A program made the translations under genes and the position numbers. From Streptomyces sp. NBC_00461 (GTDB lineage: Bacteria; Actinomycetota; Actinomycetes; Streptomycetales; Streptomycetaceae), in the NCBI RefSeq assembly GCF_036013935.1, contig NZ_CP107902.1:8961001-9025000 (forward strand): DNA of 64,000 bases. Direction: 5' to 3'. Every line of letters starts with the position of its first letter. Positions within the stretch are counted from its first letter, which is position 1. Positions 41,092-64,000 of the stretch are shown one piece after another. The notes beneath the pieces were generated by a model that made no database searches, was not told where the DNA came from, and saw nothing but the letters and a program-made list of their open reading frames with translations.

Positions 41092-42791
41092 AAGGCTGCT
41101 GAAAATCTTGTTGTGGGGCTGTCCGGCCGGAGGCCGGGCGGCCCTTTTGGCTATGCGGTGGCCGGGGCGAGTTGCCAGGTGGTGTTGGTCCGGGTGAGTC
41201 CGAGGGTGATCAGTCGGCGGAGGTTGAGGGCGGCGGCGCGGTGGTGGAGCCAGATGTTGTTGGCGATGATGCCGCGGTGGCGGACTCGGCGGTTGCCCTT
41301 GGCGACGAGCCAGGCGATGGCACGTTCGACCGGGGGCCGCCATCGGCGGTATTCGGCCTGCCAGACGGGGTCGGCCGCCTCTCGGCGGGCGGCGGTCAGC
41401 AGTTCGTGCTGGGGATGGATGTTGAGGGTGCGTCCGGTCTTGGAGGTGGTGCAGCGCCCGTGCAGGGGGCAGCCGGCGCAGACACTCTTGAACTGGGCGG
41501 TGCGGGCGCCGTCCGCTTTGACCTGGCCGAGGTTGGCGGTGCGTCCGGCCGGACAGGTCGCGGTGCCGGCCGCTGGGTCGATACGGAAGTCGTCGATGGT
41601 GAAGCCGCCGGGGACGGCCTGCCGCAGCGGCGGTGGCTTGATGACCAGGCTGTGGCCGTCGGCCTGTAAGTGTGCGCGCAGGTCGCCTGTGCCGTAGGCG
41701 GAGTCGCCGAGCACGGTTAACTCGCCGTCCTCGTCGGCCAGCAGATCGCAGGCAACGGCGGCCTCGTGGTTGCCGGGACCGTAGCCGCTGGTCAGGGCGA
41801 CGGCGGTGAACAGACCGCTCTCCGGTTCGAAGGACACATGCCCTTTGAAGCCGTCCTGGTGGCGCGTGCGGTTCTTGTGGATGTGCCGGGCGTCGGGATC
41901 GACGGTCGACACGGTCCGGTCCGCCACCGTGCGCCTGGCGATGCGCCAGCGTCCGTCGCGTCCGTCGGAGTCCTCGGCGGGTTCCACGTCCTGGCCCGCG
42001 ACCAGGGCAAGCAGGCCGACCGCGTTCGCCGCCTTCTCGCCCAGGTTCTGCTCGGGCAGGTGCCCGAGCAGGTTAAGGGCATCCGTGACCAGCGCATCGA
42101 CCAGCGCGGCGCGGGCGGCCTCGTCGTCCCAGGCGATCTTCGGTTTGCCCGGGTCGGTGTAGTCGTGCGCCCGGCAGTGCTCCGCGGCCGTCTCCCCGGC
42201 GCCGGGGACCTCGCGGATCACCCGGCGGACGGCGGAGATGATCTGGGTGACGGTGTCCTGGGTGGCCACCGCGTCATCGAGCACGGTGGAGTCCAGCGCG
42301 CGCCGCTGCTTGCCCTTGAGCACGCCGGTCGCGGCCACGACTTCCTTGACCTTGGTGAAGATCCGCGTCGGATCGGCCGAGTGACGCAGGCGGCGCCGAA
42401 AGTACGTCAACAGCGAGGGATCAAATGCGGTGTCGTACAGGCCGAGCCCGCAAGCGGCCTTCCACCGCAGGTCACACCGCAGTTCCTGGACCGTCTCGAA
42501 GTCCGACAGCCCCTGCAGGCTCTGCAGAACCACCGTCGCGGCCAGCACCTGCGGCGGCAGACTCGGCCGTCCGTTGGACGACGGATACATGTCCGCGAAC
42601 ATCCCCGGCGGGAACAACGCCTCGCGATGCTCGGCCAGGAACGCGAACACACTGCCTGCCGGGATCAACTCCCGGCAGCTTTCCCAGACATCCGGCCCGA
42701 CCATCTCGCCAGCCCATTCACCCTGCATGCCCATAAGACTGGCCCCGACTCCACCGAGCCGGGGCCAGAACCCGAGATTTTCAGCAGCCTT
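41092..42791. mobile_element. IS1182-type insertion sequence
   Basis: 1700 bp with 17-bp-plus terminal inverted repeats (left AAGGCTGCTGAAAATCTT, right complement differs only at the inner end) and flanked on both sides by CTAG (41088-41091, 42792-42795), a probable 4-bp target duplication. Carries one intact transposase gene. Inserted at the edge of a 22-bp palindrome next to the par genes. Confidence 0.85.
41151..42734 (-). CDS. IS1182-family transposase
   Basis: 527 aa, apparently full length. N-terminal DUF772-like domain (LPPQVLAATVVLQSLQGLSD, CDLRWKAACGLGL, TYFRRRLR), DDE domain (ALDSTVLDDA, VLGDSAYGTGDLR, ERAIAWLVAKGNRRVRHRG) and a zinc-binding insert CAGCPLHGRC. Start ATG 42734 lies 57 bp inside the right repeat. 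Likely active. Confidence 0.93.
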   Translation of the reverse strand: MGMQGEWAGEMVGPDVWESCRELIPAGSVFAFLAEHREALFPPGMFADMYPSSNGRPSLPPQVLAATVVLQSLQGLSDFETVQELRCDLRWKAACGLGLYDTAFDPSLLTYFRRRLRHSADPTRIFTKVKEVVAATGVLKGKQRRALDSTVLDDAVATQDTVTQIISAVRRVIREVPGAGETAAEHCRAHDYTDPGKPKIAWDDEAARAALVDALVTDALNLLGHLPEQNLGEKAANAVGLLALVAGQDVEPAEDSDGRDGRWRIARRTVADRTVSTVDPDARHIHKNRTRHQDGFKGHVSFEPESGLFTAVALTSGYGPGNHEAAVACDLLADEDGELTVLGDSAYGTGDLRAHLQADGHSLVIKPPPLRQAVPGGFTIDDFRIDPAAGTATCPAGRTANLGQVKADGARTAQFKSVCAGCPLHGRCTTSKTGRTLNIHPQHELLTAARREAADPVWQAEYRRWRPPVERAIAWLVAKGNRRVRHRGIIANNIWLHHRAAALNLRRLITLGLTRTNTTWQLAPATA

Positions 42792-44515: not shown

Positions 44516-45055
44516 TCAGCGGGCTGCGCGGATCATCACGGTGAGGACGGGCGAGGCCACTGACGGCTGGCTCTGCCCGACGTCCTCGTACCCCCACGAC
44601 TTGTAGAGCGCGTGGACCTTTCCGTCCCCAGCAGCCGGGTTGACCATGAGGGTTACGAAGGGCTCGTCACGTGTGGCGAGGAGGGCGTCGTGGATACGCC
44701 GGGCAGTGCCGGTCTTCCGCCAGGCCGGCCGGACGCCGATCTCCTTCAGGGCTACGACCGGACGCTCGGTGTACTTCTCGGCCGGCGTCGGGCTGGTGCG
44801 CTGCCAGTACCGGTCGCCGTGCTCGATGGTGTTGCCGTAGGCGTAGCCGACGGGATGTCTGTCCGCGTACGCGAGGACAGCCGCGAACCCCGGCTCGGTG
44901 CTGTGCCGGTCCAGGCGTTCGCCGAACGCGGTGACCGCGTAGTTCGGCAGGTGGAGGAGTGGGGCGCGCACTTCGGCGTACACGTCGAGGAGGTCGCCGC
45001 GGGCGGTGTCGAGGTTGGTGAAGGTGCGCAGTTCGATGGCGGGCGCCGTGGTCAT
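44516..45055 (-). CDS. GNAT-family N-acetyltransferase
   Basis: 179 aa. GNAT core with VVALKEIGVRPAWRKTGTAR (beta4 and the acetyl-CoA pyrophosphate loop, R-x-x-G-x-A) and LYKSWGYEDV. Its ATG overlaps the XRE/TPR stop (ATGA at 45052-45055), so it is co-translated with the regulator. Could acetylate the lanthipeptide, its precursor or a self-toxicity target; no evidence distinguishes these. Confidence 0.85.
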   Translation of the reverse strand: MTTAPAIELRTFTNLDTARGDLLDVYAEVRAPLLHLPNYAVTAFGERLDRHSTEPGFAAVLAYADRHPVGYAYGNTIEHGDRYWQRTSPTPAEKYTERPVVALKEIGVRPAWRKTGTARRIHDALLATRDEPFVTLMVNPAAGDGKVHALYKSWGYEDVGQSQPSVASPVLTVMIRAAR

Positions 45056-46338
45056 GCGGCCATCCTCCAGGTGGCGGAGTGCTCGGTCCAGGTCTGCACG
45101 CTGGAGCTTTCCGGCGCGGTGGCGCGCAGGGCGGCACCGAACTCCTGCAGCATGCGGGTGACCCGGGCGTGCTGGGTAGCCGCCTCGGCGGGGACCTTCA
45201 TCGCGGTGGCCGTGGCGGTGTCGGGGGCGCCCTGTGCGAGCTGGGCGTGCGCGAGCCGGGTCGTGGTGATGGCCCGGGAGCGGATCATGTGGGGCCGGAG
45301 GGCGGACAGGCAGCGGTGGGCGTGGTACTCGGCGGTGGAGTAGTCGCCGAGCGCCAAGTGCGCTGACAGTGCCAGGGAGTCCAGTTCAGCCTGGTCGTAG
45401 AAGGCGAGCATCCACACCGGCCGGTAGTCGGCGGGGTCTGCGCGCAGCATGGCGTCCTGCGCCTGCTCGAAGGCCCGGCGGGTGCCGGTGCGGTCCTGTG
45501 CTGCGCCGTGGATGGCGCCTTGGCGGGCCAGGCCGAGGGATGCGAAGAGAGGGTCTCGGCGGGTGAGGTGCAGGTTGCGGGCGACGTCGTTGGCGGCGAA
45601 TGCGTCCGCGGGACGGCCCATGTGCCGGTACATGGTGCCTGCGTGGCTCCAGATGCGGAACTTGATCGCCTGGTCGCCGGACATCTCGGCGAGGGCCTGG
45701 GCCTCACGCATGTGCGCCTTGGCGATGTCGTAGCGCCGGCCGTCGATGGCGGCCCACATCGCTGAGGAACGGAACGCCGCTGCGGAGGCGTAGAGGCTGC
45801 TGCGTACCCGTTGGCTGGCGCTGCCCGCGTTCTGGAGATTCAGGGCCTCGTCGGCGAGCGCGGCGGCCCGCTGCTCGATGCCGAGTTGGCCGCCGTGGCG
45901 GTGGTCGCTGGCGATGATCTCGGCGAAGCGCTTCTGTAGACGGTCGACGTCGCTCATGCCGATGCGGCGCGGGGATGCGGTGCCGGGAGCGGCGGCTGCC
46001 GCGGCGGCAGCCGCCGCGATGCCTCCGACGAGGGTACGGCGCTTCATGTCGGGGTCCTCCTGCTGCGGTGGGGCTGGGCTGGACGGAGTCCGGCCCCGTG
46101 GCACGAACCCTAGAGCGACGGCGGGCAGGCCGCTGACGTCCTCAAGTGCCTTGCGGGTAGCCGATTTGGGCCATGTGACCCGGCCTGCTTTCCAGTCCCG
46201 GACCGATGAACCGTCGAGGCCGCCATGTCTCCCGGTCAGTTCCTCTAAGGCCCTGTTCACAGTGTCAGCAAGGCTGTTGGAGCTGTAGCCGTGTTCGGCC
46301 ATCCACGCCTCGAGAACGGTGTTGCGCGTGGTGTCCAT
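45052..46338 (-). CDS. XRE/TPR-type regulator of the lanthipeptide locus
   Basis: 428 aa. N-terminal DNA-binding segment (SSNSLADTVNRALEELTGRH, VRDWKAGRVTWPKSATRKAL) of the kind common in Streptomyces specialised-metabolite regulators. An internal MKRRTLVGG plus polyalanine linker (about 97-118) precedes a C-terminal TPR-like array (ADAFAANDVARNLHL, AEYHAHRCLSALRPH). Divergent from the FxLD operon; probable pathway regulator. The linker resembles a Tat-like segment but is internal and probably not exported. Confidence 0.8.
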   Translation of the reverse strand: MDTTRNTVLEAWMAEHGYSSNSLADTVNRALEELTGRHGGLDGSSVRDWKAGRVTWPKSATRKALEDVSGLPAVALGFVPRGRTPSSPAPPQQEDPDMKRRTLVGGIAAAAAAAAAAPGTASPRRIGMSDVDRLQKRFAEIIASDHRHGGQLGIEQRAAALADEALNLQNAGSASQRVRSSLYASAAAFRSSAMWAAIDGRRYDIAKAHMREAQALAEMSGDQAIKFRIWSHAGTMYRHMGRPADAFAANDVARNLHLTRRDPLFASLGLARQGAIHGAAQDRTGTRRAFEQAQDAMLRADPADYRPVWMLAFYDQAELDSLALSAHLALGDYSTAEYHAHRCLSALRPHMIRSRAITTTRLAHAQLAQGAPDTATATAMKVPAEAATQHARVTRMLQEFGAALRATAPESSSVQTWTEHSATWRMAA

Positions 46339-46578
46339 GTCCGCACGGTAGTCCTCACCTCCCTTGCCCCGCCAGGTAAAGAGAAGGTCAAATCGCCCTA
46401 GGTTCTTCAGATGGACGGACGGCTGATCACCCTAACCACCGTGCGCAGAAGGGGAGTTGTCTTGGTGTCGGTCGCCCGCTACGCCCACCGTGCGGGCGGC
46501 TGTTGACGGCCCGGCCCGCCCCTGAGGTCCCCCGCAGGGGTGGGCTGGGCGCCGAGACGACACGAAGGCTCAACCCCA

Positions 46579-47025
46579 ATGACGAGTCTCATTAAGCCAG
46601 TTCAGGCCGCCCCAACCGGCCACCCCGCCTATAGTCAGACCTTCCCGTGCGAGCCGTCCACGGCCCAAATCGGCCGCAAGCTCGTCCATGACGTCCTCGG
46701 CGTATGGCACCTCGACAACCTGGCCGACGTCACCGCATTGATCATCTCGGAGCTGATCGCGAATGCCGTCAGGCACACCCCGTGCGACTCGATCCGCCTG
46801 ATTATTGGGCGACCGAGTGCGACACGGGTTCGCGTTGGGGTGGTGGACCGGGCGCCATCACGTTTGCCGGTGCTCGGGCAGGTCGGGGGAGACGACGAGT
46901 CAGGCCGCGGCCTGCTCCTGATCGACGGCATCGCCGACCGCTGGGGCTATGACCTGCACGGCCCGGAGGAGCGCCCACGGTGCAAAGAGGTCTGGGCCGA
47001 ACTCTTTATGAAGGGCGACGAGTGA
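46579..47025 (+). CDS. Anti-sigma-type ATP-binding protein (HATPase_c)
   Basis: 148 aa. Bergerat motifs: N box ELIANAVRHTP, VVDRAPSRLP and G box DDESGRGLLLIDGIADRWG. First gene of the plus-strand operon; overlaps the next gene by GTGA (47022-47025). GAAGG lies 11 nt before ATG 46579. Such proteins frequently precede lanthipeptide clusters in Streptomyces; role there is unknown. Confidence 0.85.
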   Translation: MTSLIKPVQAAPTGHPAYSQTFPCEPSTAQIGRKLVHDVLGVWHLDNLADVTALIISELIANAVRHTPCDSIRLIIGRPSATRVRVGVVDRAPSRLPVLGQVGGDDESGRGLLLIDGIADRWGYDLHGPEERPRCKEVWAELFMKGDE

Positions 47026-47240
47026 AGCCGGTCGTGGCGACCTCGCCCGTGCCGGACGTCGCTCGCCTACGACTCCGCCAGCAGATGGCTATGGAGTGTG
47101 CACGCTGCGCCCGGTACCTGGGAGCGAGCGGCGAGATCTTGGGCGAAGTACGTCATCGGGGCCTGCTGTTCCAGCTCTGGGTGTGCGGGCCCACCTGCCG
47201 GTCGCCCACCCCTGGACCGCGGACGGGGGCCGAGACATGA
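47022..47240 (+). CDS. Small Cys-rich hypothetical protein
   Basis: 72 aa from GTG 47022 coupled to the ATP-binding protein (GTGA) and to the next gene (ATGA at 47237-47240). CARCARYLGASG and WVCGPTC hold two Cys pairs that could bind zinc. A recurrent small protein in Streptomyces regulator operons; no function assigned. Confidence 0.7.
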   Translation: MKPVVATSPVPDVARLRLRQQMAMECARCARYLGASGEILGEVRHRGLLFQLWVCGPTCRSPTPGPRTGAET

Positions 47241-47443
47241 CCCAGCTCCCCGGCATGCAGGCGCACTGGGTCACCGGTGACTGCTGGCTCGGGTGCGAGC
47301 GCACCGGAGTGCCCGTGATCTGGCTCGGCCCACTGCAGTGGGACGGGCAGCACGCCCCGGTCCACGCCTGCGAGCCGTGCCTCGACCGGCTCAAGGCTCA
47401 GGCGCTCGCCTACTTCATGGAGCGGAGGCCGGCTGCCGTGTGA
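47237..47443 (+). CDS. Small hypothetical protein
   Basis: 68 aa. LPGMQAHWVTGDCWLGCER, the central VIWLGPLQWDG and HACEPCLDRL hold four Cys in two pairs. Translationally coupled to the preceding gene. Ends 93 bp before the precursor peptide, with no terminator between. Family unknown. Confidence 0.7.
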   Translation: MTQLPGMQAHWVTGDCWLGCERTGVPVIWLGPLQWDGQHAPVHACEPCLDRLKAQALAYFMERRPAAV

Positions 47444-47536
47444 GCAGACTCCCGTCTCCGGCCGTGCGGACTGTGTCGTACGGCCGGAGGCGGGCACCAC
47501 CGCACAACAACATCCCAACCACTCAGAGGAGTTGGC

Positions 47537-47716
47537 ATGACACGCAGCACCGTAGTACCGAGCGGCACTCATGTGAGCCAGCAGACCCCGAGGACGTCGG
47601 ACGGCTTCGACCTGGACGTGTCCCTCGTCGAGGTCGCCGACCCCGCGGGTCTGGTCAACCTGACCGACGACAACTGCGGGACCACCTGCGGCGCCTGCAC
47701 CACCAACGTCGCCTGA
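47537..47716 (+). CDS. FxLD-family lanthipeptide precursor peptide
   Basis: 59 aa. The leader holds the defining FDLD (residues 24-27, F-x-L-D) in DGFDLDVSLVEVADPAG; the C-terminal core after about residue 41 is NLTDDNCGTTCGACTTNVA. It has three Cys (47, 51, 54) and five Thr (43, 49, 50, 55, 56), enough for two or three methyllanthionine rings, and Asp44/Asp45 lie between Thr43 and Cys47. AGAGGAG sits 6 nt before ATG 47537. Followed by a hairpin and then lanB, lanC and the FxLD methyltransferase. Cleavage site not determined. Confidence 0.93.
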   Translation: MTRSTVVPSGTHVSQQTPRTSDGFDLDVSLVEVADPAGLVNLTDDNCGTTCGACTTNVA

Positions 47717-47738
47717 CCCGAGGCTTCACGTCGCTCCG

Positions 47739-47778
47739 GGCTGGTGCCGCCGCGCCCTGTGGTGTGGCGGCACCAGCC
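47739..47778 (+). terminator. Hairpin between precursor and lanB genes (likely attenuator)
   Basis: GGCTGGTGCCGCC (47739-47751) pairs perfectly over 13 bp with GGCGGCACCAGCC (47766-47778), 14-nt loop, 22 bp after the precursor stop. No U run. Expected to stop part of the transcription or stabilise the precursor mRNA, so that peptide exceeds enzymes. Confidence 0.7.
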
Positions 47779-47805
47779 GCCCGTCCCTCACCTACGGAGG
47801 TAGTG

Positions 47806-48025
47806 GTGGCTGCTCCGCGCCCAGCGTTCCGAACCGGCACGATCGCTCTCGTTACGCGCCGTTGCCCGGCCGACACTGCCGTGTCCTCCGCTTCCGGACC
47901 TCAACGATCACTCTTCCAACGGGTCCGCCACCCGTGTCGCCTGGCTGCGCGCGGTCTGGGCGAGCGCCGACCTCGCCGAAGCCCTGGAACACGCCAGCCC
48001 GGTCCTGGCCGCGCAGGTACGGACC
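47806..48025 (+). other. LanB 5' coding region in two frames (apparent +1 frameshift)
   Basis: GTG 47806 (GGAGG 5 nt upstream) opens VAAPRPAFRTGTIALV, a plausible LanB N-terminus, but that frame stops at 48042. The next frame, without any start codon before 48026, reads PPLPDLNDHSSNGSATRVAW and continues LRAVWASADLAEALEHASPV, clearly LanB, into the long gene. The frames differ by +1, so one extra base (or lost two) lies at about 47855-47900. Confidence 0.65.
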
Positions 48026-50890
48026 GTGTGCACGGCCGATGAGCCGTCAACGCGCGACGTCCGGCGTGCGGCACTGTCCGTGGCCCGCTACCTATTGCGC
48101 TCCCAGCACCGGGCGACGCCGTTCGGGCTCTTCGCCGGTGTGACCGTCGCGGAATTCGGTCCGCAGGCGAGCGCACGCTGGGGTGCGGAGCACGTGGCCG
48201 TCGGCCATGCGGGCGCAGAGTGGTTGGCCGCCCTCGTCGAGAGGCTGGAGTCCTACCCCGACCTCCTCGAACGGCTGCCGGTGGTCGTCAACAACACCGT
48301 GACGAGCCGCGGGGACCGGCTCATCGTGCCGTTTCAATCCGATGCCCAGGACGATCGGACTCGCGCGGTTGAGGCGTCCCTGGCCCTCACCGAGCCCGTA
48401 CGCGCGGTCCTCGCCGCAACGCGGGCGCCGGTCCGGGTCGGTGTGCTCGCGCACAAGCTCCAGGCGGAGTTCCCCGAGGCCGGACCGGAGAAGGTGCGCC
48501 AGCTGCTGGTAGAGCTCATCCAGCGGCGTGTCCTGATCACGAGCTTGCACACACCCGGCACCGAGACCGACGCCCTCGGGTATCTACTCGACCGACTCGA
48601 CGCGATCGACACCGACAGCCTCCCCCCGGTCGCGGAGATGCTGCGCGAGCTACGGGCGATCCGGACCGGCCTCAATGAGTGCACTTCGCGGGGCGGGCGG
48701 GACAGCGTCGCAGCGCGGATGAGGGCCCTCGTGCCAGGTCTGCGCCGCCACCCTGTCGCGCTCGACCTGCGCCTGGACGCGCAGCTCGTACTGCCGGACG
48801 CGGTCGCCCGCGAGATCGAGCGCGCGGCCCTGATCCTGACCCGAGTCAGCGCCCGCCCGTACGGCACCGCGGCGTGGGGCACCTACCACCAGCGATTCTA
48901 CGAGCGGTACGGCATCGGCACGATGGTGCCGCTCCAGGAAGTCGTCGCGGACAGTGGCACTGGCTACCCCGAGGGCTACCCAGGCACCCCGCCCGGCGCC
49001 CGTCGACCTCGCGTCTCCGCTCGGGATGACGCCCTCGTACGGTTGGCGCAGGCTGCCGCGCTCGACGGCCGTGACGAGGTGGTCCTCACCGACGAGTTGA
49101 TCGAAGCCCTGGACGTAGGGCCCGACGAACCCCGGGTGCCGCCACACCTGGAGGTGGCGGTGCGCGTCCACGCGGCAAGCGTTGGCGAGCTACAGCGCGG
49201 GCAGTTCCGGCTGGAGGTCGTGAGCGTGTCTCGCGGCGCCGGCGTCTCCACAGGCCGGTTCCTCAGCGTCCTGGGCACCGCCGACCGTGAGGCCCTGGCC
49301 GCCGAGCTGGCTGACCTTCCGAGCGCTGACAGGAACACCGTGCCCGCGCAGCTGTCCTTTCCGCCGCTCCTGCCCGAGAGCGCCCACATCACACGCGCCC
49401 CGCGAGTCCTGCCCGTCGTGATCAGCCTCCAGGAACACCGAGCCCTCGCCGACGATGTCCTCACACCTGCGGACCTGGCGGTGGGGTGCGACGGCCGCCG
49501 CCTGTACCTGGTCGCCCCCGAGCGCGGCCAGCGCATCGAGGCCGCCGGGATGCACGCGCTTAACCTCCACACGCACACTCCGCCGCTGGTGCGATTCCTC
49601 ACCGAGTTGTCGCGTGCTCAATGCGCGCAGGTCACCGTCTTCGACTGGGGCGCTGCGGCGTCGATGCCGTTCCTACCGCGCCTGCGGTGCGGGCGCACGG
49701 TGTTTGCCCCGGCCCGCTGGCGTCTGGAGGCGACCGAGCAGCCTGGTCGCGCACGCCCTCGGGCCGAATGGGACTCCGCCCTCACCGACTGGCGGGCTCG
49801 GCGGCGGCTACCTCGGTGGGTCTACCTCGTGGAGGACGACCGGCGTCTCTTCCTTGACCTCGACGAGGCCGGCCACCGGACGCTGCTGCGCCAGCACCTC
49901 GACCGAGTGGGCCTGGCCGTGCTCGTCGAGGCGGCGGAACCGGGGGCGTTCGGTTGGTGCGACGGTCGCGCCCACGAGATAGTGGTGCCGCTCAAGGCCA
50001 TCCGGCCGCCGGCGTGGCCGGCGCTTCCCGCCCCCACCCCGGCTCGCGCCCTCTCCCCAGCCCAGATGCAGACCCCGGCCGCTTCGTCGGTGTTGCTGGC
50101 CACCTTGTATGGAGACGCTCGCCGCCAGGACACCCTGCTCTCCTGCCACTTGCCCGATCTGCTCGAACGGCTCGGTGGCCCGCCGTGGTGGTTCATCCGC
50201 TTCCGCGACCCCGAGCAGCACTTGCGTCTGCGCATCGCGCTACCCACGCCGGAGGCGTTCGCCGAGACGACTCGAACCGTGAGCGCGTGGGTCGACGAGC
50301 TGCGCGGCGCCGGTCTGCTGGCGGACTTGCGGTACCCCACCTCCTATCGGGAGATGGGCCGTTGGGGATCCGGCCCTGCATGGGACGCGGCCGAGGAAGT
50401 GTTCCGGGCGGACTCGCGCGCCATCCTGGCCCAGCTCGCGCAGCCGCGGCGCCCACACGAGCGCACGCTGGTGGCCGCACACACTGTCTCTATCGCCTCC
50501 GCCTTCCTCGGCAGCACCCAAGCCGGGATGCGCTGGCTGATCGACCACATCCCGCCCACAGCGCCCGTACCCGTACCGCGCCCGCAGTTCACCGATGCCG
50601 TACGCTTCGCTGACCCTGGCGACGCCTGGGCGGCATTGCGCGGCGCCCCCGGAGGAGCGGCGATCGTGTCGGGGTGCGCCGATCGCGACGCGGCGCTCGC
50701 CGCGTACCGGCGGCACCTGCCAGGTCCCCACACGCAGGGCATCGCCCTCGATGACGTCCTGACCTCGCTGCTGCACGTTCATTTTGTACGGCACATCGCG
50801 GTGAACTTCCCCGAAGAAGAGGTTTGCCTCTACCTCGCTCGCGCTGCCGCCCTGGCCTGGACCGCCCGCACCACTGGGAGGACACGATGA
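48026..50890 (+). CDS. Class I lanthipeptide dehydratase (LanB), full-length type
   Basis: 954 aa in this frame from GTG 48026; about 1028 aa if joined to the frame-shifted N-terminus at 47806. Glutamylation domain (SVARYLLRSQHRATPFGLFA) is followed by a C-terminal SpaB_C-like elimination domain (PPWWFIRFRDPEQHLRLRI, HIAVNFPEEEVCLYLARAAA). LanB uses glutamyl-tRNA to glutamylate Ser/Thr then eliminates glutamate, giving Dha/Dhb. Overlaps lanC by ATGA. Without the upstream frame about 74 residues are missing and there is no clear ribosome-binding site, so the frameshift may matter. Confidence 0.88.
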   Translation: MCTADEPSTRDVRRAALSVARYLLRSQHRATPFGLFAGVTVAEFGPQASARWGAEHVAVGHAGAEWLAALVERLESYPDLLERLPVVVNNTVTSRGDRLIVPFQSDAQDDRTRAVEASLALTEPVRAVLAATRAPVRVGVLAHKLQAEFPEAGPEKVRQLLVELIQRRVLITSLHTPGTETDALGYLLDRLDAIDTDSLPPVAEMLRELRAIRTGLNECTSRGGRDSVAARMRALVPGLRRHPVALDLRLDAQLVLPDAVAREIERAALILTRVSARPYGTAAWGTYHQRFYERYGIGTMVPLQEVVADSGTGYPEGYPGTPPGARRPRVSARDDALVRLAQAAALDGRDEVVLTDELIEALDVGPDEPRVPPHLEVAVRVHAASVGELQRGQFRLEVVSVSRGAGVSTGRFLSVLGTADREALAAELADLPSADRNTVPAQLSFPPLLPESAHITRAPRVLPVVISLQEHRALADDVLTPADLAVGCDGRRLYLVAPERGQRIEAAGMHALNLHTHTPPLVRFLTELSRAQCAQVTVFDWGAAASMPFLPRLRCGRTVFAPARWRLEATEQPGRARPRAEWDSALTDWRARRRLPRWVYLVEDDRRLFLDLDEAGHRTLLRQHLDRVGLAVLVEAAEPGAFGWCDGRAHEIVVPLKAIRPPAWPALPAPTPARALSPAQMQTPAASSVLLATLYGDARRQDTLLSCHLPDLLERLGGPPWWFIRFRDPEQHLRLRIALPTPEAFAETTRTVSAWVDELRGAGLLADLRYPTSYREMGRWGSGPAWDAAEEVFRADSRAILAQLAQPRRPHERTLVAAHTVSIASAFLGSTQAGMRWLIDHIPPTAPVPVPRPQFTDAVRFADPGDAWAALRGAPGGAAIVSGCADRDAALAAYRRHLPGPHTQGIALDDVLTSLLHVHFVRHIAVNFPEEEVCLYLARAAALAWTARTTGRTR

Positions 50891-52155
50891 CCGCGCAGGC
50901 CGGGCTGGACCTGGCCTACGCCGTCGCCGAGCAGCTCGCCGACCCCCACACGGCGTACCTTGGACCAGCGGTCTCTCGTCGGCAGCACCTTGCCTATGGC
51001 TTGCCCGGCATCGCGCTCCTGCACATCGAGCGGGCTGCGGCAGACCTGGGGCCGTGGCAGCGCGCCCATGACTGGCTCGCCGCCGCATCCCGCGAACCGC
51101 TCACCAGCGGCCACGACAGCCACCCCTTCTACGGGGCGCCCGCCTTCGCGCACGCTCTGGCCTGCGCCGCCGATCACCTGCCCGGCGCCTACCAGCGCTC
51201 GCTTGACACTCTCGATCGACAAATGACTGACGACGTGAGCCGCCGCGTCGACGCCGCACACCGCCGCATCGACGCCGGACTCCTCCCAGCGCTCGCGGAG
51301 TTCGACACCATTCGAGGCCTGAGCGGATACGGCTCCTACCTCCTGCGCCGCAACCCTGGGAGCGCCGCCCTGCGTGCCGTACTCGACTACTGCGTACGCC
51401 TCACCGAACCGATTACACACGACGGCGAGATCTTGCCCGGTTGGTGGACGGACACGGGGCCCTCGGGCCGCCCGGACGACCGTTTTCGAGGCGGACACGC
51501 CAACAACGGCATGGCGCACGGCATCGGCGGCGTGCTCGCGCTCCTGGCGCTCGCCGCCACGCAGGGCACCTTCGTCGACGGCCACGACGACGCACTGGGC
51601 CGGATCCTGCTGTGGCTGGACCGATGCCGAGAGGACACCGGCCGAGGCCCGGCGTGGCCGTACTGGGTCAGCCGGGACGAGCTGCGCACCGGCCGCCTCA
51701 CCTCGTCCACGCCGACGCGGCCGTCATGGTGCTACGGCACCGCAGGCCTCGCCCGCGCCCAGCAACTCGCCGCACTCGCCCGCGGCGACGACAGCCGCCA
51801 GCTGGACGCCGAGAACGCGCTCGTGGCCGCCCTCACCAACCCCGCTCAGCTCAAGGCCACGACGGACAAGGCCCTGTGCCACGGCTTCGCCGGCATCGCC
51901 CACGTCGCCGCCCGTGCGGCCGACGACGCCCACCCCTCGACCGCCGGACAGCTCCGCGCCACGATCCCGGCACTCCTAGCCGCAGTCCACCCGCCGGACA
52001 CCGACCCCGCACACGCCGCCACGACCCTCATGCAGGACGAGGAGCGCGGACCCGGTCTCCTCGACGGCGCAGCCGGTATCGCACTGGCCGTCCTCGCGCC
52101 CAGCACCGCCGAACCGCCCCGATCCACCTGGGACGCCTGCCTACTCATCGCCTGA
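50887..52155 (+). CDS. Lanthionine cyclase (LanC)
   Basis: 422 aa. Zinc ligands visible as Cys282 in WCYG and Cys331/His332 in LCHG, plus MAHGIGG at 209-215, typical of LanC alpha/alpha toroids. Catalyses Michael addition of Cys onto Dhb/Dha. Translationally coupled to lanB (ATGA) and 25 bp before the methyltransferase gene. Confidence 0.92.
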   Translation: MTAQAGLDLAYAVAEQLADPHTAYLGPAVSRRQHLAYGLPGIALLHIERAAADLGPWQRAHDWLAAASREPLTSGHDSHPFYGAPAFAHALACAADHLPGAYQRSLDTLDRQMTDDVSRRVDAAHRRIDAGLLPALAEFDTIRGLSGYGSYLLRRNPGSAALRAVLDYCVRLTEPITHDGEILPGWWTDTGPSGRPDDRFRGGHANNGMAHGIGGVLALLALAATQGTFVDGHDDALGRILLWLDRCREDTGRGPAWPYWVSRDELRTGRLTSSTPTRPSWCYGTAGLARAQQLAALARGDDSRQLDAENALVAALTNPAQLKATTDKALCHGFAGIAHVAARAADDAHPSTAGQLRATIPALLAAVHPPDTDPAHAATTLMQDEERGPGLLDGAAGIALAVLAPSTAEPPRSTWDACLLIA

Positions 52156-52179
52156 CCCTCGAAACCGAAGGACACCCGC

Positions 52180-54270
52180 ATGCCCCCGGACCGCTCCGAC
52201 CGCTGGCAACAACACAACATCACCTTCGGCGACCGCGAGAGCGCCCAGCGCGCCATCGTCGAACGCATCGCCCCTGTCCTCCTCGCCGCCGAAAGGGACG
52301 GGCAGCTCACCGGCTGGTGGTTCATGAACAAGCAGCCCTGGCCGCTGCGGTACCGCGCGGACGAGCCTTCACCCGCCGTCGAAGCACTGCTGAGCGACCT
52401 CGTCCAGGACGGCACGGCCGTGTCATGGCTGCCCTACCTCTACGAACCCGAGACCCACGCCTTCGGCGGGACCCAGGCCATGGGCGTCGCCCACGACCTG
52501 TTCCACAAGGACAGCCGCCACCTGCTCACCTACCAACCAGGCCCGAGGCAGCTGGGACACCGGGAAACCACCGTGCTGCTGGCAAGCGTCATGATGCGGG
52601 CGGCCGGCCTGGACTGGTTCGAGCAGGGCGACGTATGGGTAAGGGTCGCCGCCCTCCGACCGACCAGCGGCCTTCTGCCCTCTGCGCGAGCCGCCGAACT
52701 GGCGCCCGCGATGCGGAAGCTGATGACGGTCGACGCCCAGAGCCTGTGCCGCCCGAACGGCCCGCTCGCCGAGCACAACGAGTGGGTCGCCTCGTTCGAG
52801 TGGGCGGGCACCGCGCTCGCCGACCTCGCAGGCCGAGGCGCCCTCACCCGCGGTCTGCGAGCCGTCATTGCCCACCACCTGATCTTTCACGCCAACCGCG
52901 CCGGTCTCCTCCGGGTCGACCAAAGCGCCATGTCCAACATCGCACGAGAGGTAATCATGGGAACGAGTGACAACACCGCGTCGACCGACGAGGCAACGTC
53001 CGAGGCGGCTAGCGTCAGGGCGGTGAATACCGACACGATCGCCACCCCCACGGCTGACGCCGAACGCCTCCGCAACGCCCTGGTCGACCAGCTTCGCGCG
53101 GACGGGCACGCCCGCACGACCGCAGTCGAGAAGGCGCTGCGGACTGTGCCCCGTCACGTGTTCGTGCCGGAGGCGTCGCTTGAAGACGCCTACGCCAACG
53201 CACCAGTGCACATCAAGTACGACACCGACGGTACATCGATCTCGTGCGCTTCCCAGCCGGGCGTCGTCGCCCTCATGCTGGACCAACTCGACGCCCAGCC
53301 CGGCGAGCGCATCCTCGAACTCGGCGCCGGCACCGGCTACAACGCCGCTCTCCTCGCCCACCTGGTCGGGGAGAGCGGGCACGTGACCACCCTCGATGTC
53401 GACGACGACCTTGTGGAGGGCGCTCGCGCACACCTGGCCGACGCCGGTCTCACCAACGTCGATGCCGTGACCCGCGACGGGGCCCTCGGCTACGCCGAAG
53501 GAGCACCGTACGACCGGATCATGGCCACCGTGGGCGCTCACGGCGTACCGCACGCCTGGATGCAACAACTCACCCCCGGCGGCCGGCTCCTCGTCCCCCA
53601 GCGCCTGAAGGGCACCGTCTCCCGGTCCATCGCCTACGAGCGGCGCGACGGTCGATGGGTGTCTCTCGGTAGCGAGATGAACACCTTCATGCCGCTCCGG
53701 CGGGGCATCGCCGACGACGACCGCCGCGTCATCCCGCTCAGCACAGACGGCACCGTCCGGCTTCAGGCCCCCGCCGGGCAGAACATCGACGCCGATGCCC
53801 TCGCCGGAGTCCTGGACCAGCCGCGCACCGAGGAGTGGACTGGCATGATGGTCCGCGCCATGGAATCGCCGGAGTGGATGGAACTTTTCGTCACCTGTTC
53901 CCTTCCCTCCGGCCTCATCCGGATGTTGTTCCCCCAGAACGCCAAGGGCACTCTGCTCACGGAGGACCCCTACCCCTCGTCGACCGCGGCCGTCGACAAG
54001 GGCGCCGTCACCTACCTGGCGCGACGCGTGTCGGAGAAGAAGACCCCCGAGGGCGACAAGCTCTGGGAGTTCGGCGTCATCGGCCACGGCCCCGGCAGCG
54101 ACGAACTCGCCACGAAGGTCGCCGACGCCATCCGCACCTGGGACCGCGAATACCGCGGCCGCGAGGCCACGTTCGAAATCCAGCCCCTCGACGCCCCCGC
54201 CATCGAGCAGCGCCCCGGACTCTTCGCTCTCGACACCCCGCTGAACCGCATCGTCGTCGACTGGCGGTGA
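52180..54270 (+). CDS. FxLD-system fusion: SpaB_C-like domain + isoaspartyl-type methyltransferase
   Basis: 696 aa. Residues 1 to about 255 form a thiopeptide-type SpaB_C-like domain (WQQHNITFGD, GWWFMNKQPWPLRYR, WLPYLYEPETHAFGG). Residues about 290-500 are a PCMT Rossmann methyltransferase: VPRHVFVPEASLEDAYANAP, SCASQPGVVALML, motif I ILELGAGTGYNAAL near 378. The last 195 residues are specific to this group. LanSA enzymes methylate a ring Asp of class I lanthipeptides, leading to succinimide/isoAsp. The N-terminal domain may bring an extra elimination or substrate-binding step. Confidence 0.9.
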   Translation: MPPDRSDRWQQHNITFGDRESAQRAIVERIAPVLLAAERDGQLTGWWFMNKQPWPLRYRADEPSPAVEALLSDLVQDGTAVSWLPYLYEPETHAFGGTQAMGVAHDLFHKDSRHLLTYQPGPRQLGHRETTVLLASVMMRAAGLDWFEQGDVWVRVAALRPTSGLLPSARAAELAPAMRKLMTVDAQSLCRPNGPLAEHNEWVASFEWAGTALADLAGRGALTRGLRAVIAHHLIFHANRAGLLRVDQSAMSNIAREVIMGTSDNTASTDEATSEAASVRAVNTDTIATPTADAERLRNALVDQLRADGHARTTAVEKALRTVPRHVFVPEASLEDAYANAPVHIKYDTDGTSISCASQPGVVALMLDQLDAQPGERILELGAGTGYNAALLAHLVGESGHVTTLDVDDDLVEGARAHLADAGLTNVDAVTRDGALGYAEGAPYDRIMATVGAHGVPHAWMQQLTPGGRLLVPQRLKGTVSRSIAYERRDGRWVSLGSEMNTFMPLRRGIADDDRRVIPLSTDGTVRLQAPAGQNIDADALAGVLDQPRTEEWTGMMVRAMESPEWMELFVTCSLPSGLIRMLFPQNAKGTLLTEDPYPSSTAAVDKGAVTYLARRVSEKKTPEGDKLWEFGVIGHGPGSDELATKVADAIRTWDREYRGREATFEIQPLDAPAIEQRPGLFALDTPLNRIVVDWR

Positions 54271-54286
54271 CGCCCCTTGCGTAGCG

Positions 54287-54323
54287 GACGGTGCCCGCCG
54301 GTGTACGGCTGGCGGGCACCGTC
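54287..54323 (+). terminator. Hairpin after the FxLD methyltransferase gene
   Basis: GACGGTGCCCGCC (54287-54299) pairs perfectly over 13 bp with GGCGGGCACCGTC (54311-54323), 11-nt loop, no U tract. Same design as the hairpin after the precursor. Confidence 0.65.
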
Positions 54324-54357
54324 GCCCCAGCACTTCTCACTCACGCCCGGGGAACTC

Positions 54358-55482
54358 ATGGACCCGCACGGACCCATAGCCCAGCGCTTTCCGCTCGTCG
54401 CCCGATTCCGGCCCGCCTGTCTTCCCCTGCCCGAACGCGTGGGCGGCCTTGTCGACCTCGCCGAGACGGTGGTGGAGAAGGGCGACCAAGGGCTCGCATC
54501 CGCCGTCTACAACCAGGCCGCGCTCATCGCCTCCGATCTCGGCCTGCCCGATCTCGCCCGCGAGATGTGTCACCAGCACGCCGCCGCCTACCTCGACGCG
54601 TGCCCCCTGCCCGGCATGAGCGCAATCCGGGGACTGGAACCGGTCGTCAACCTCGCCCGCCTCCAGATCCGCGCCGGCCACACCGACGAGGGACGCCAAC
54701 ACCTACTCGACCTGTACAAGGCCGTCGAGGCAGGCACAGCTGCCCGGTTCGAGGGCGTCGCCGTACCGGCGGACCTCACTGCGACCGACGAGGACCGCCA
54801 CGAGGTCCGCGCGTGGCTGTGGCGCGTGCTCCTCGCTGATGGGACCCGCACGCTTACCGCCAAGGGACGTTGGGCGGAGGCTCTGAGACACCTCGAGACT
54901 CACTGCGGCGTAGGCAAACGGATGCTCGACGGACGCCAAGTTGCCATACTTACTGCCCTCGTTGCAGGTGACACGGCACGGGCAGCTGTTCTCCTTGCTG
55001 AAACGATGCCCGGCGATCCGTGGGAGCAGGCCATCACGGCAGGCTTGACCGCCCTGTGCCGCCGCGGCGCCGAGCTGCCGGTCGAAGACCAACTGGCGGC
55101 GCTGGCGACCACCTATCTGGAGTGGCCGGCCGAACCTGGGATGACCGTCTTCGACACTCGGCTTGGCCTTACCGTCCTCGACGCGATCGGTTCCGCCGAG
55201 GCTCCTACAGCCCACCGCGTCGTCGAGGACCTCCACCGCAGGACGGCCGCCGCCGAAGACGGCTACGCGGCCCGCGAGAACCTGGCGCACCCTCTGTTCA
55301 CCTCGATCGCCACGGACAGGCAAACCCAGGACTGCCGCGCTCTCGTGCATGCCTGCGCCCTCGGGACAGGGACCATCCCGGACGAACTGCAAGAACAGCT
55401 GACGTCGGCTCTAAGCGCCAGCGACATCGTGATCCGGGACAGCCTTGCGCGCCCCTCCAATTCCGGGCGTACAACCCGGTGA
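54358..55482 (+). CDS. Helical-repeat accessory protein of the FxLD locus
   Basis: 374 aa. Alpha-helical with TPR-like pairs throughout (GLASAVYNQAALIASDLGLP, LARLQIRAGHTDEGRQHLLD, GRWAEALRHLETHC, ARAAVLLAETMPGDP). No enzymatic motif. ATG 54358 chosen: earlier start lacks ribosome-binding site and lies in the hairpin. Last gene of the plus-strand set; possible scaffold or immunity-related protein, but no evidence decides. Confidence 0.75.
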   Translation: MDPHGPIAQRFPLVARFRPACLPLPERVGGLVDLAETVVEKGDQGLASAVYNQAALIASDLGLPDLAREMCHQHAAAYLDACPLPGMSAIRGLEPVVNLARLQIRAGHTDEGRQHLLDLYKAVEAGTAARFEGVAVPADLTATDEDRHEVRAWLWRVLLADGTRTLTAKGRWAEALRHLETHCGVGKRMLDGRQVAILTALVAGDTARAAVLLAETMPGDPWEQAITAGLTALCRRGAELPVEDQLAALATTYLEWPAEPGMTVFDTRLGLTVLDAIGSAEAPTAHRVVEDLHRRTAAAEDGYAARENLAHPLFTSIATDRQTQDCRALVHACALGTGTIPDELQEQLTSALSASDIVIRDSLARPSNSGRTTR

Positions 55483-62144: not shown

Positions 62145-63158
62145 TCAGCCCTGCAGGGTCGCCGCGACCTCCCGCAGGTGCGTGTGCACCCCACGGTGAG
62201 TCTCGCGCGCGGGCAGCCACTGTTTGCGGATCTTGGCCACGCACGTGTAGTTGGTGTCGCACACGTTGGCCAACGGTGACTCGACCGCCTGGGTCGCGAA
62301 CTGGTACGCGTCCAGCTCGCTGAAGCCGTAGTCGCGCACCAGCCAATGCACCAGGTCGAGCTGGGATATCCGGAACGCGTCCTCCAACGGGCGTGCCGAT
62401 CCCGTCGAGATGATGTGCGTGTCCGACTCGATGCGCGGCCATGGTGTGGCGAGCCCCTTGAGCAACTCGACGATCGCCACGGTGTTCATCGCGCACTCGA
62501 CGGCGACGCCACAGGTCTCGCCCTCACCCTGCCGGGCGTGTCCGTCGCCCAGGCTGAGCAGCGCGCCCTCCACGTTCACCCCGAGGTAGCAGGTGACGCC
62601 GGCCCGCATCTCGGGCGTGTCCATGTTGCCGCCGTGCGCGTCGGGCACCAGGGCCGAGCGGACCTCGAGATTGGCAGGGGCCACCCCCACGGTGCCGTGC
62701 ATGGGGTCCATGGGCAGCTCGGCCTCGATGTCGCTGTCATGGGCCCGGAACAGCGCCGTGCGTCGGGTCCGGTCGAGCTGCCAGATCCACACGGTCTCCG
62801 GCAGCGGTGGCTGCAGTGTGGCCGTGGTGTGTGTGGAGGTGAGCGCGCCGAACAGGGGGACCGTGGTGGACGCGGCCCAGTCACGCGCCGGTTCGACCGA
62901 CACGAAGTGCACCGCGACCGTGTCACCCGGTTCGGCGCCTTCGACGTGGAAGGGGCCGGTCTGCGGATTGAGGAAGGGGAACTCGCATACCTCGGACACC
63001 AGGTCCTTCTCGGACCGCACCCGCCCGGCGAAGCAGTCCTCCGTGTACACGTCGAGGACCGTGCCGGGCGCGATGCGCGCCACGGGGGGTGCCCCGCCGA
63101 AGGTCCAGGCGTACTCGTTCGGTTCGGGCCGGACGGTCAGGATCCGGGGGTCGCTCAT
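62145..63158 (-). CDS. Acetamidase/formamidase family amidohydrolase
   Basis: 337 aa. FmdA_AmdA family: EPNEYAWTFG, VEPGDT-type EGAEPGDTVAVHF, the metal-site segment DAHGGNMDT and SLGDGHARQGEGET, and C-terminal YGFSELDAYQFA. Hydrolyses short amides to ammonia and acid. ATG 63158 overlaps the transporter stop (TGA 63155-63157), so uptake and hydrolysis are coupled. Confidence 0.9.
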   Translation of the reverse strand: MSDPRILTVRPEPNEYAWTFGGAPPVARIAPGTVLDVYTEDCFAGRVRSEKDLVSEVCEFPFLNPQTGPFHVEGAEPGDTVAVHFVSVEPARDWAASTTVPLFGALTSTHTTATLQPPLPETVWIWQLDRTRRTALFRAHDSDIEAELPMDPMHGTVGVAPANLEVRSALVPDAHGGNMDTPEMRAGVTCYLGVNVEGALLSLGDGHARQGEGETCGVAVECAMNTVAIVELLKGLATPWPRIESDTHIISTGSARPLEDAFRISQLDLVHWLVRDYGFSELDAYQFATQAVESPLANVCDTNYTCVAKIRKQWLPARETHRGVHTHLREVAATLQG

Positions 63159-64000
63159 GGGCGCGCTGCTCCGTTCTGCGAAAGGCCGGTGGGGGAGGGG
63201 TCGTCGAGGTGGACACGGGCGGTCTCGGCTATACGTCCGGGATGCCGCCGCATCAGCACCAGCAGCACCACGACACCGGCGGCCATCCACACTCCGACGA
63301 TCGGCCCGGCGTACGACACCGGGGCGGTCAGCTCGGTGACGAAGTCGAAGACGGGCAGGCCCGCCGCGGTGAGCAGCGCGGGTACGAACGCGGCGATGCC
63401 GAGCAGGGGCAGCAGCAGCTGCCGTACCGGTTTGAGCAACTCCCGTCTGCGGCGCAGGAAATAGCCGGCGCAGGCGAGGTTCACCACGATGTAGACGCCG
63501 ATCACGACGGTGACGATCACCGTGGCGAGGAGCAGGAAGGCGGTCACCGGGTCATAGCCCAGCCCCAGTCCCAGCACGGCGCCGACCGCCACCACGCTCT
63601 GCACGGCGATTCCGGCGACGGGGGAGCGGTGCTTCGGATGGAGCGTCGCGAACAGGCGGGGCAGGACGTGGATACGGGCCAGGGCGAAGGCCGTGCGCGT
63701 GGAGACGGTGGCGCACGCGTTGGCGTTGGCGATCGTGGAGTTCACCACGGCGAGGAAGACCAGCACCCAGAACAGGCCGAACGACGCCCGCGCCACGCCC
63801 TCCCAGGACGCCTCGCCGGACGCCCCGAACGTCGCGAACCGGTCCGGCCCGAAGTACACCGTCATGGCGTAGGTCGTGACCACGTAGAAGAGGCCGATCC
63901 CGAGGGCCGCGCCGAGGACCGCGCGGTGCATCGTCCGACGCGGGTCGCGCGTCTCCTCGGCGAGCGGTGCCGCCGCCTCGAATCCGGCGAAGGCCAGCAC
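63155..64000 (-). CDS. APC-family amino acid/amide permease, C-terminal part
   Basis: 281 codons; the 5' end lies beyond the right edge. LAFAGFEAAAPLAEETRDPR matches APC transporter helix 6-7, then about six further hydrophobic helices. Translationally coupled to the amidase, so it probably imports the amide substrate. Substrate not assignable. Confidence 0.88.
   Translation of the reverse strand: MLAFAGFEAAAPLAEETRDPRRTMHRAVLGAALGIGLFYVVTTYAMTVYFGPDRFATFGASGEASWEGVARASFGLFWVLVFLAVVNSTIANANACATVSTRTAFALARIHVLPRLFATLHPKHRSPVAGIAVQSVVAVGAVLGLGLGYDPVTAFLLLATVIVTVVIGVYIVVNLACAGYFLRRRRELLKPVRQLLLPLLGIAAFVPALLTAAGLPVFDFVTELTAPVSYAGPIVGVWMAAGVVVLLVLMRRHPGRIAETARVHLDDPSPTGLSQNGAARP

Follow-up and report, generated by a model that had tools for sequence, protein, structure and literature searches.

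A probable coi-family class I lanthipeptide locus with a lyase/methyltransferase fusion in Streptomyces sp. NBC_00461

A 64,000-nt stretch of contig NZ_CP107902.1 of Streptomyces sp. NBC_00461 (hereafter the window, to which all coordinates refer) carries a class I lanthipeptide locus in which genes for a precursor peptide (LanA), a dehydratase (LanB), a cyclase (LanC), a lyase/methyltransferase fusion protein and an all-helical protein follow one another on the same strand (Table 1). This locus very probably belongs to the coi family of class I lanthipeptide clusters. The coi cluster of Streptomyces coelicolor A3(2) is described as having the same gene set (CoiA1, CoiB, CoiC, CoiSA and CoiH; PMC9486935, PMC9011353), including a lyase fused to an isoaspartate (isoAsp)-type methyltransferase and an extra protein, and the order of its accessions suggests the same gene order. 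CoiA1 is reported to carry Thr43, Thr50, Cys47 and Cys51 at the same precursor positions as the window peptide, although coi has three precursors and one was found in the window. As stated in an earlier preliminary description of this DNA, made from the sequence alone, the locus has no recognizable transporter or leader peptidase: no such family was found among 20 open reading frames (ORFs) scanned in and around the locus (a subset of the flanking ORFs), and coi is likewise described without a protease (PMC9486935). The window adds an orthologue to a widespread and partly characterized family, and its own significance is small.

Translation and profile searches bore out the gene positions given in the preliminary description, and Pfam and NCBIfam profiles supported its assignments of an FxLD class I lanthipeptide precursor, LanB, LanC, a SpaB_C/PCMT fusion, a GNAT protein and a HATPase, while its divergent regulator with tetratricopeptide repeats (TPR) belongs to the NsdA family. 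Both precursor and fusion score above the cut-offs of TIGR04363 and TIGR04364, the latter covering the methyltransferase part of the fusion only (residues 294-695). In other respects that description has to be revised: the N-terminal domain that it regarded as an extra corresponds to the syn-type glutamyl lyase characterized in CoiSA (PMC9486935, PMC9011353), the C-terminal extension that it listed as another extra is reported to be common to isoAsp methyltransferases associated with ribosomally synthesized and post-translationally modified peptides (PMC10787088, PMC13001092), and the activity that it held to be undescribed is not so for the family, since the coi cluster has been characterized (PMC9486935).

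Residue signatures of the two lyase domains

The fusion protein comprises a lyase domain at residues 9-259 (TIGR03891), a linker, a methyltransferase domain at residues 298-506 and a C-terminal domain that extends to residue 695. In the lyase domain, Lys51 stands at the column of NisB Tyr776, the Arg pair (Arg57 and Arg59) is retained, and Ala and Ile occupy the positions of NisB Arg826 and His961, respectively, which together make up a syn-lyase signature; Lys51 and Arg57 are invariant in an alignment of 36 sequences. The LanB of the window, which by its domain matches consists of a glutamylation domain and an anti-type glutamyl lyase domain, keeps the equivalents of NisB Arg786, Arg826 and His961 and has Phe at the Tyr776 column. 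In NisB, the R786A, R826A and H961A variants were reported to glutamylate without eliminating (PMC4979651).

A survey of 268 lyase domains, which were not deduplicated and include loci fetched twice, extended this comparison; reverse-strand matches and those below 25 bits or shorter than 180 residues were omitted, NisB Arg784, Arg786 and Arg826 were numbered from the alignment, and His961 was placed by its spacing to Ser958 and Arg966. The Arg826 equivalent is Arg in all 130 LanB domains, in one of 121 fused domains and in none of 17 standalone ones. The Lys column is occupied by Lys in all 17 standalone domains and in 119 of the 121 fused ones, and in none of the 130 LanB domains. His was found at the His961 equivalent, as judged by motif spacing, in 125 of 130 LanB domains and in none of the 138 others. 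Even with duplicates included, this yields a clear residue signature that parts anti-type from syn-type lyase domains.

The same features were described for CoiSA, whose fused lyase lacks the catalytic His, replaces Arg826 by a hydrophobic residue and has an important Lys (PMC9486935), and whose N-terminal domain was reported to be a syn-glutamyl lyase leading to D-allo-L-methyllanthionine (PMC9486935, PMC9011353). Loss of CoiSA Lys46 left a glutamylated peptide (PMC9011353). When CoiSA was combined with lyase-dead CoiB, all three glutamyl-Thr residues were eliminated and the peptide was incompletely cyclized; with intact CoiB the product bore LL-, DL- and D-allo-L-methyllanthionine (PMC9486935). 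Similarly, SptBb, the standalone syn-lyase of SapT, is described as sharing with the window domain the conserved Lys and a hydrophobic residue in place of Arg826 (PMC9890492, PMC9011353), and it makes (E)-dehydrobutyrine (Dhb) according to nuclear magnetic resonance (PMC9890492); unlike the window protein, however, it is not fused to a methyltransferase, and its LanB is split. A published sequence cluster that holds the syn-lyase kind contains 426 lyase domains, all from Actinobacteria (PMC9011353). The fusion of an elimination domain to a protein isoaspartate methyltransferase (PIMT) had already been noted in Actinobacteria in 2020 by Walker et al., whose class I families I 1-4 have the fusion and the conserved core Asp, as does the window; that study is a genome survey (PMC7268733).

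In the same survey other chemistry was raised as a possibility for such domains (PMC7268733), and the absence of the canonical Arg826 and His961 equivalents could be taken to mean that the fused domain binds, regulates or catalyses a different reaction while LanB carries out all dehydrations. This is quite unlikely, given that CoiSA(ED) bears this signature too and, on co-expression, carried out glutamate elimination at each of the three Thr residues (PMC9486935), and that 20 related loci discussed below showed no lyase domain other than the fused one. The related idea of a dead or non-lyase domain, suggested by the residue losses, was dropped on the same CoiSA evidence.

Predicted pathway and the state of lanB

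The window precursor has the leader motif FDLD and the core LTDDNCGTTCGACTTNVA. As this core contains T43-D-D45-N-C47 (TDDNC), which fits T-x-D-x-C, Asp45 is the predicted isoAsp site; a TxDGC motif has been described (PMC10787088). A pattern that accepts a peptide on either TxDxC or its Cys spacing gave a precursor in 105 of 141 loci (window included), and 55 of 57 distinct precursors carry T-x-D-x-C and two lack it, although the pattern itself partly selects for the motif. The core Asp is also kept in a separate precursor listing whose selection does not lean on T-x-D-x-C. When 30 of the 36 loci without a precursor were searched again, 4 and another 14 precursors were recovered, all with the Asp (one of them with Asn in place of the motif Thr); the remaining re-searched loci, some of which end at contig ends, gave none. 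A search of the PDB for OlvA or a coi peptide returned no relevant match for the window precursor or core. Some precursors have FxLN in place of the FxLD leader motif (L083-L089, L176, L183-L185 and L187). Three loci (L092-L094) agree in precursor spacing with the coi subfamily proper; each encodes three FxLD peptides, one of which has SDGG in its core in place of TxDxC.

The genes present, their conservation and the signatures of domains and active sites are direct observations. There is good reason for confidence that the cluster is of the coi type and follows a pathway whose chemical steps, ring topology and order are all modelled on characterized relatives. LanB would glutamylate the core Thr residues with Glu-tRNA, and its anti-lyase domain would turn most glutamyl-Thr into (Z)-Dhb, while the methyltransferase-fused lyase would syn-eliminate the C-terminal glutamyl-Thr to give (E)-Dhb. 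LanC would close three methyllanthionine rings, C47-Dhb43, C54-Dhb50 and C51-Dhb56 (the last being D-allo-L), as predicted by alignment with coi-type precursors, for which the pairs C47-43, C55-50 and C51-57 are reported (PMC9486935). The methyltransferase half would then methylate Asp45 inside the first ring, and the Asp45 ester would collapse to an aspartimide hydrolysing mainly to isoAsp.

An Asp-directed methyltransferase, as proposed in the preliminary description, agrees with the TIGR04364 match, which spans residues 294-695 and thus runs through the C-terminal domain, and with the T-x-D-x-C core. A Foldseek search with a model of the fusion returned 1DL5, a Thermotoga PIMT with an extra C-terminal domain, as the best match, and MadB was also matched; the same C-terminal domain in Thermotoga PIMT is mentioned in PMC10787088. 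On this model the methyltransferase half has a PIMT fold with an extra C-terminal domain, a trait of LanSA/PAMT enzymes. It resembles OlvSA, which is reported to methylate the core Asp after ring formation, the aspartimide then hydrolysing mostly to isoAsp (PMC13001092), and conversion of Asp45 to isoAsp is predicted by analogy.

The olv cluster of S. olivaceus NRRL B-3009 (OlvA, OlvB, OlvC and OlvSA) is described as sharing a class I LanB, a LanC, an Asp-to-isoAsp methyltransferase and a similar precursor with the window. That the window itself is an olv-type cluster, with only (Z)-derived rings and the methyltransferase as sole tailoring enzyme, is nevertheless very improbable: the Asp motif and the kind of methyltransferase are the same, but the fused lyase, absent from OlvSA, is present here with its key Lys. 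OlvA is also reported to have an extra lanthionine ring, and the source genome contains two PF14028 domains, both within this locus, whereas the olv type has no additional lyase.

Several points weigh against the coi-type assignment and pathway. The likeness to coi is drawn from published descriptions of CoiSA and CoiH and not from sequence identity. Between Cys51 and the final Thr the window core is one residue shorter than the coi type, and positions 55 and 56 are both Thr, so that the third ring could differ from that of coi. Lys is absent from the diagnostic column in two of the 121 fused domains, and the distances from this Lys to the Arg pair are 6 and 8 residues in the window, whereas the published numbering of CoiSA gives 5 and 7. 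Conservation of the Arg pair proves little, because CoiSA was reported to stay active after loss of either Arg, as it did with the conserved Glu mutated (PMC9486935). The model of the fusion is of moderate quality (predicted local distance difference test score 70.5), and superposes loosely on 1DL5 (root-mean-square deviation 11 over 364 columns). According to the coi study, no coi or olv product was seen in the native host (PMC9486935). Finally, the lanB of this copy is apparently frame-broken near its 5' end.

Because of this apparent break, the completeness claimed for the locus in the preliminary description is doubtful. The N-terminal LanB homology sits in two reading frames that meet near 47850: the first 17 residues of the N-terminal stretch share the frame of GTG 47803, and the rest follow the body frame, which has no ATG, GTG or TTG start upstream of 48026. 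In relatives, the residues before the equivalent of GTG 48026 run on upstream into a typical LanB N-terminus, and both segments stand side by side in one frame in 11 of 11 placeable relatives (tblastn E<0.01). With regard to the full-length LanB of the coi type, the lyase residues are present in the window but the N-terminus is divided between frames, whereas coi lanB is described as full-length. The missing part would include a conserved N-terminal Arg, read here as NisB Arg14 by its position; NisB R14A was reported to dehydrate incompletely, with secretion blocked (PMC4341554).

The break could be genuine or could stem from the assembly; relatives carry intact copies. If it is real, this copy may make no product, and it is possible, though on balance rather improbable, that the locus is a decayed copy in which lanB is truly broken and the peptide stays undehydrated while the other genes are intact. 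The divided homology, the lack of a body-frame start before 48026 and the position of the Arg14 equivalent speak for decay. The other operon genes, however, are open and highly conserved, and a single indel is a common assembly error too. LanB ORFs shorter than 940 residues were also found in six other loci, two of them of the same genome and at least some at contig ends, so that short LanB ORFs alone say little. The closest record to the fusion protein is from Streptomyces canus (99% identical) and is named 'methyltransferase, FxLD system'; the LanB search, in a database clustered at 90%, gave nothing above 94% among the matches listed.

Recurrence of the operon and a sister group with lyase-less LanB

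At E<=1e-60, 74 of 199 related genomes contain TIGR04364, against none of 14 control genomes, an occurrence far beyond chance; the whole fusion was detected at E<=1e-120 in 62 of the 392 genus genomes searched. A scan of named contigs gave a best 80 loci, 75 of which are titled Streptomyces. The loci compared were 40 and a further 14 of the 66 non-window places in the genus fusion search and 20 from the upper part of the TIGR04364 list; 60 of the loci (L062-L121) overlap the 80 of the scan (L122-L201), several lying on the same contig. Thirty close loci (L062-L091) encode fusions 66-94% identical to that of the window, and outside them the genus search gave five further matches of at least 66%, four of them partial.

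The preliminary description had proposed a neighbourhood search, in which the core operon held and the upstream genes did so in part. All 30 close loci encode LanB, LanC and the helical protein, and 29 have a precursor, whereas the NsdA-type regulator was found in 17 (2 of them weak, below 40% identity), the HATPase in 18 (4 weak by the same measure), the GNAT protein in 15 and each small Cys-rich protein in 12. Given these lower counts, the core is LanA-LanB-LanC-fusion-helical protein, and the upstream genes are local to the branch; operons with this core recur widely in Streptomyces.

Among the 20 loci taken from the upper part of the TIGR04364 list (L102-L121), a separate lyase-type protein lies beside the methyltransferase in 16; in L107 the lyase is in two pieces, in L113 it lies within a longer ORF, L116 has a fusion, and no lyase-type protein was seen in L120 when these loci were examined. 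Both Arg784 and Arg786 are lost in 14 of the 130 LanB lyase domains. In L102-L108, L110, L113, L117-L119 and L121, the LanB lyase domains have lost this pair and kept Arg826, and with one exception His961, and the loci bear another lyase-type ORF. A division of complementary half-sites between LanB and standalone lyase in the unfused loci was considered and dropped, as retention of Arg786 in the standalone partners does not follow its loss from LanB.

In a sister group of 20 loci (L095-L100, L116 and L202-L214), LanB consists of the glutamylation domain only, and no lyase other than the fused one was found in the locus. This holds for 19 of 21 fetched genus loci with fusions 42-46% identical to that of the window (one 47%), the exceptions being L101 and L215; the twentieth, L116, is from another genus, and in L202 and L208 the LanB match is itself partial. 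Seven of the 20 genomes (G339, G274, G116, G293, G099, G447 and G430) contain no PF14028 match other than the fused domain; G293 has a completeness of 85%, and the G116 and G099 assemblies each consist of hundreds of contigs. The cores of this sister group are mostly of the MCSTGD[TN]CGSSCPSAC type.

The group looks like an exception, because the main text of PMC9486935 places methyltransferase-fused syn-lyases with a full-length dehydratase and a passage of PMC9011353 gives two lyase domains 'in almost all cases'. It is tentatively proposed, with slightly less than even confidence, that one bifunctional enzyme here controls all dehydrations and the Asp modification, with all rings derived from (E)-Dhb. 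When CoiSA(ED) was the only enzyme to dehydrate the peptide, CoiC was reported not to complete its rings (PMC9486935), so the sister-group cyclases would have to differ, which makes the all-(E)-Dhb reading slightly less likely. If the fused syn-lyase does act alone, the group would be a natural test of the co-evolution of lyase stereochemistry and cyclase.

Gene inventory and surroundings

Table 1. Genes of the lanthipeptide locus and adjoining upstream genes in the window
Feature	Position	Strand	Evidence
GNAT acetyltransferase-like protein	44516..45055	-	PF00583 22.3 bits, cut-off 20.7
NsdA-family TPR-like regulator, divergent	45052..46338	-	NF053720 278 bits, cut-off 75
HATPase_c_2 domain protein	46579..47025	+	PF13581 32.2 bits, cut-off 27.4
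Small protein, two Cys pairs, zinc-knuckle-like by eye	47022..47240	+	matches in 12/30 close loci
Small protein, two Cys pairs, zinc-knuckle-like by eye	47237..47443	+	matches in 12/30 close loci
LanA precursor, 59 aa	47537..47716	+	TIGR04363 46.9 bits, cut-off 30
lanB, class I dehydratase	47803..50890 (body ORF 48026-50890)	+	PF04738 683 bits, PF14028 118 bits
lanC cyclase	50887..52155	+	PF05147 138 bits
Probable CoiSA-type lyase/methyltransferase fusion, 696 residues	52180..54270	+	TIGR03891 151 bits; TIGR04364 453 bits, cut-off 320; PCMT 160 bits
All-helical TPR-like protein, likely CoiH counterpart	54358..55482	+	position in operon

The most likely starts of lanC and of the helical protein gene are ATG 50887 and ATG 54358, respectively. 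The motifs WCYG and CHG were seen by eye in the LanC translation and presumably supply the zinc ligands of LanC. The helical protein stands at the place expected of CoiH, to which it is likened by position; it belongs to no NCBIfam family in 38 members searched and has no sequence match in the PDB at E up to 10. Its fold was considered as a clue to function and gave only generic TPR matches (best Foldseek E 7e-4, TM 0.14), which were dropped because helical repeats give such scores anyway. The two Cys-rich small proteins of the preliminary description are genuine ORFs in that they have matches in related loci, but they are kept only among close relatives, and neither matched a family in NCBIfam or Pfam profile searches. 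Beyond the locus, a DDE transposase gene lies about 2 kb to the left of the cluster (41151-42734, - strand), and a gene for an acetamidase/formamidase family protein is located to its right (62145-63290, - strand).

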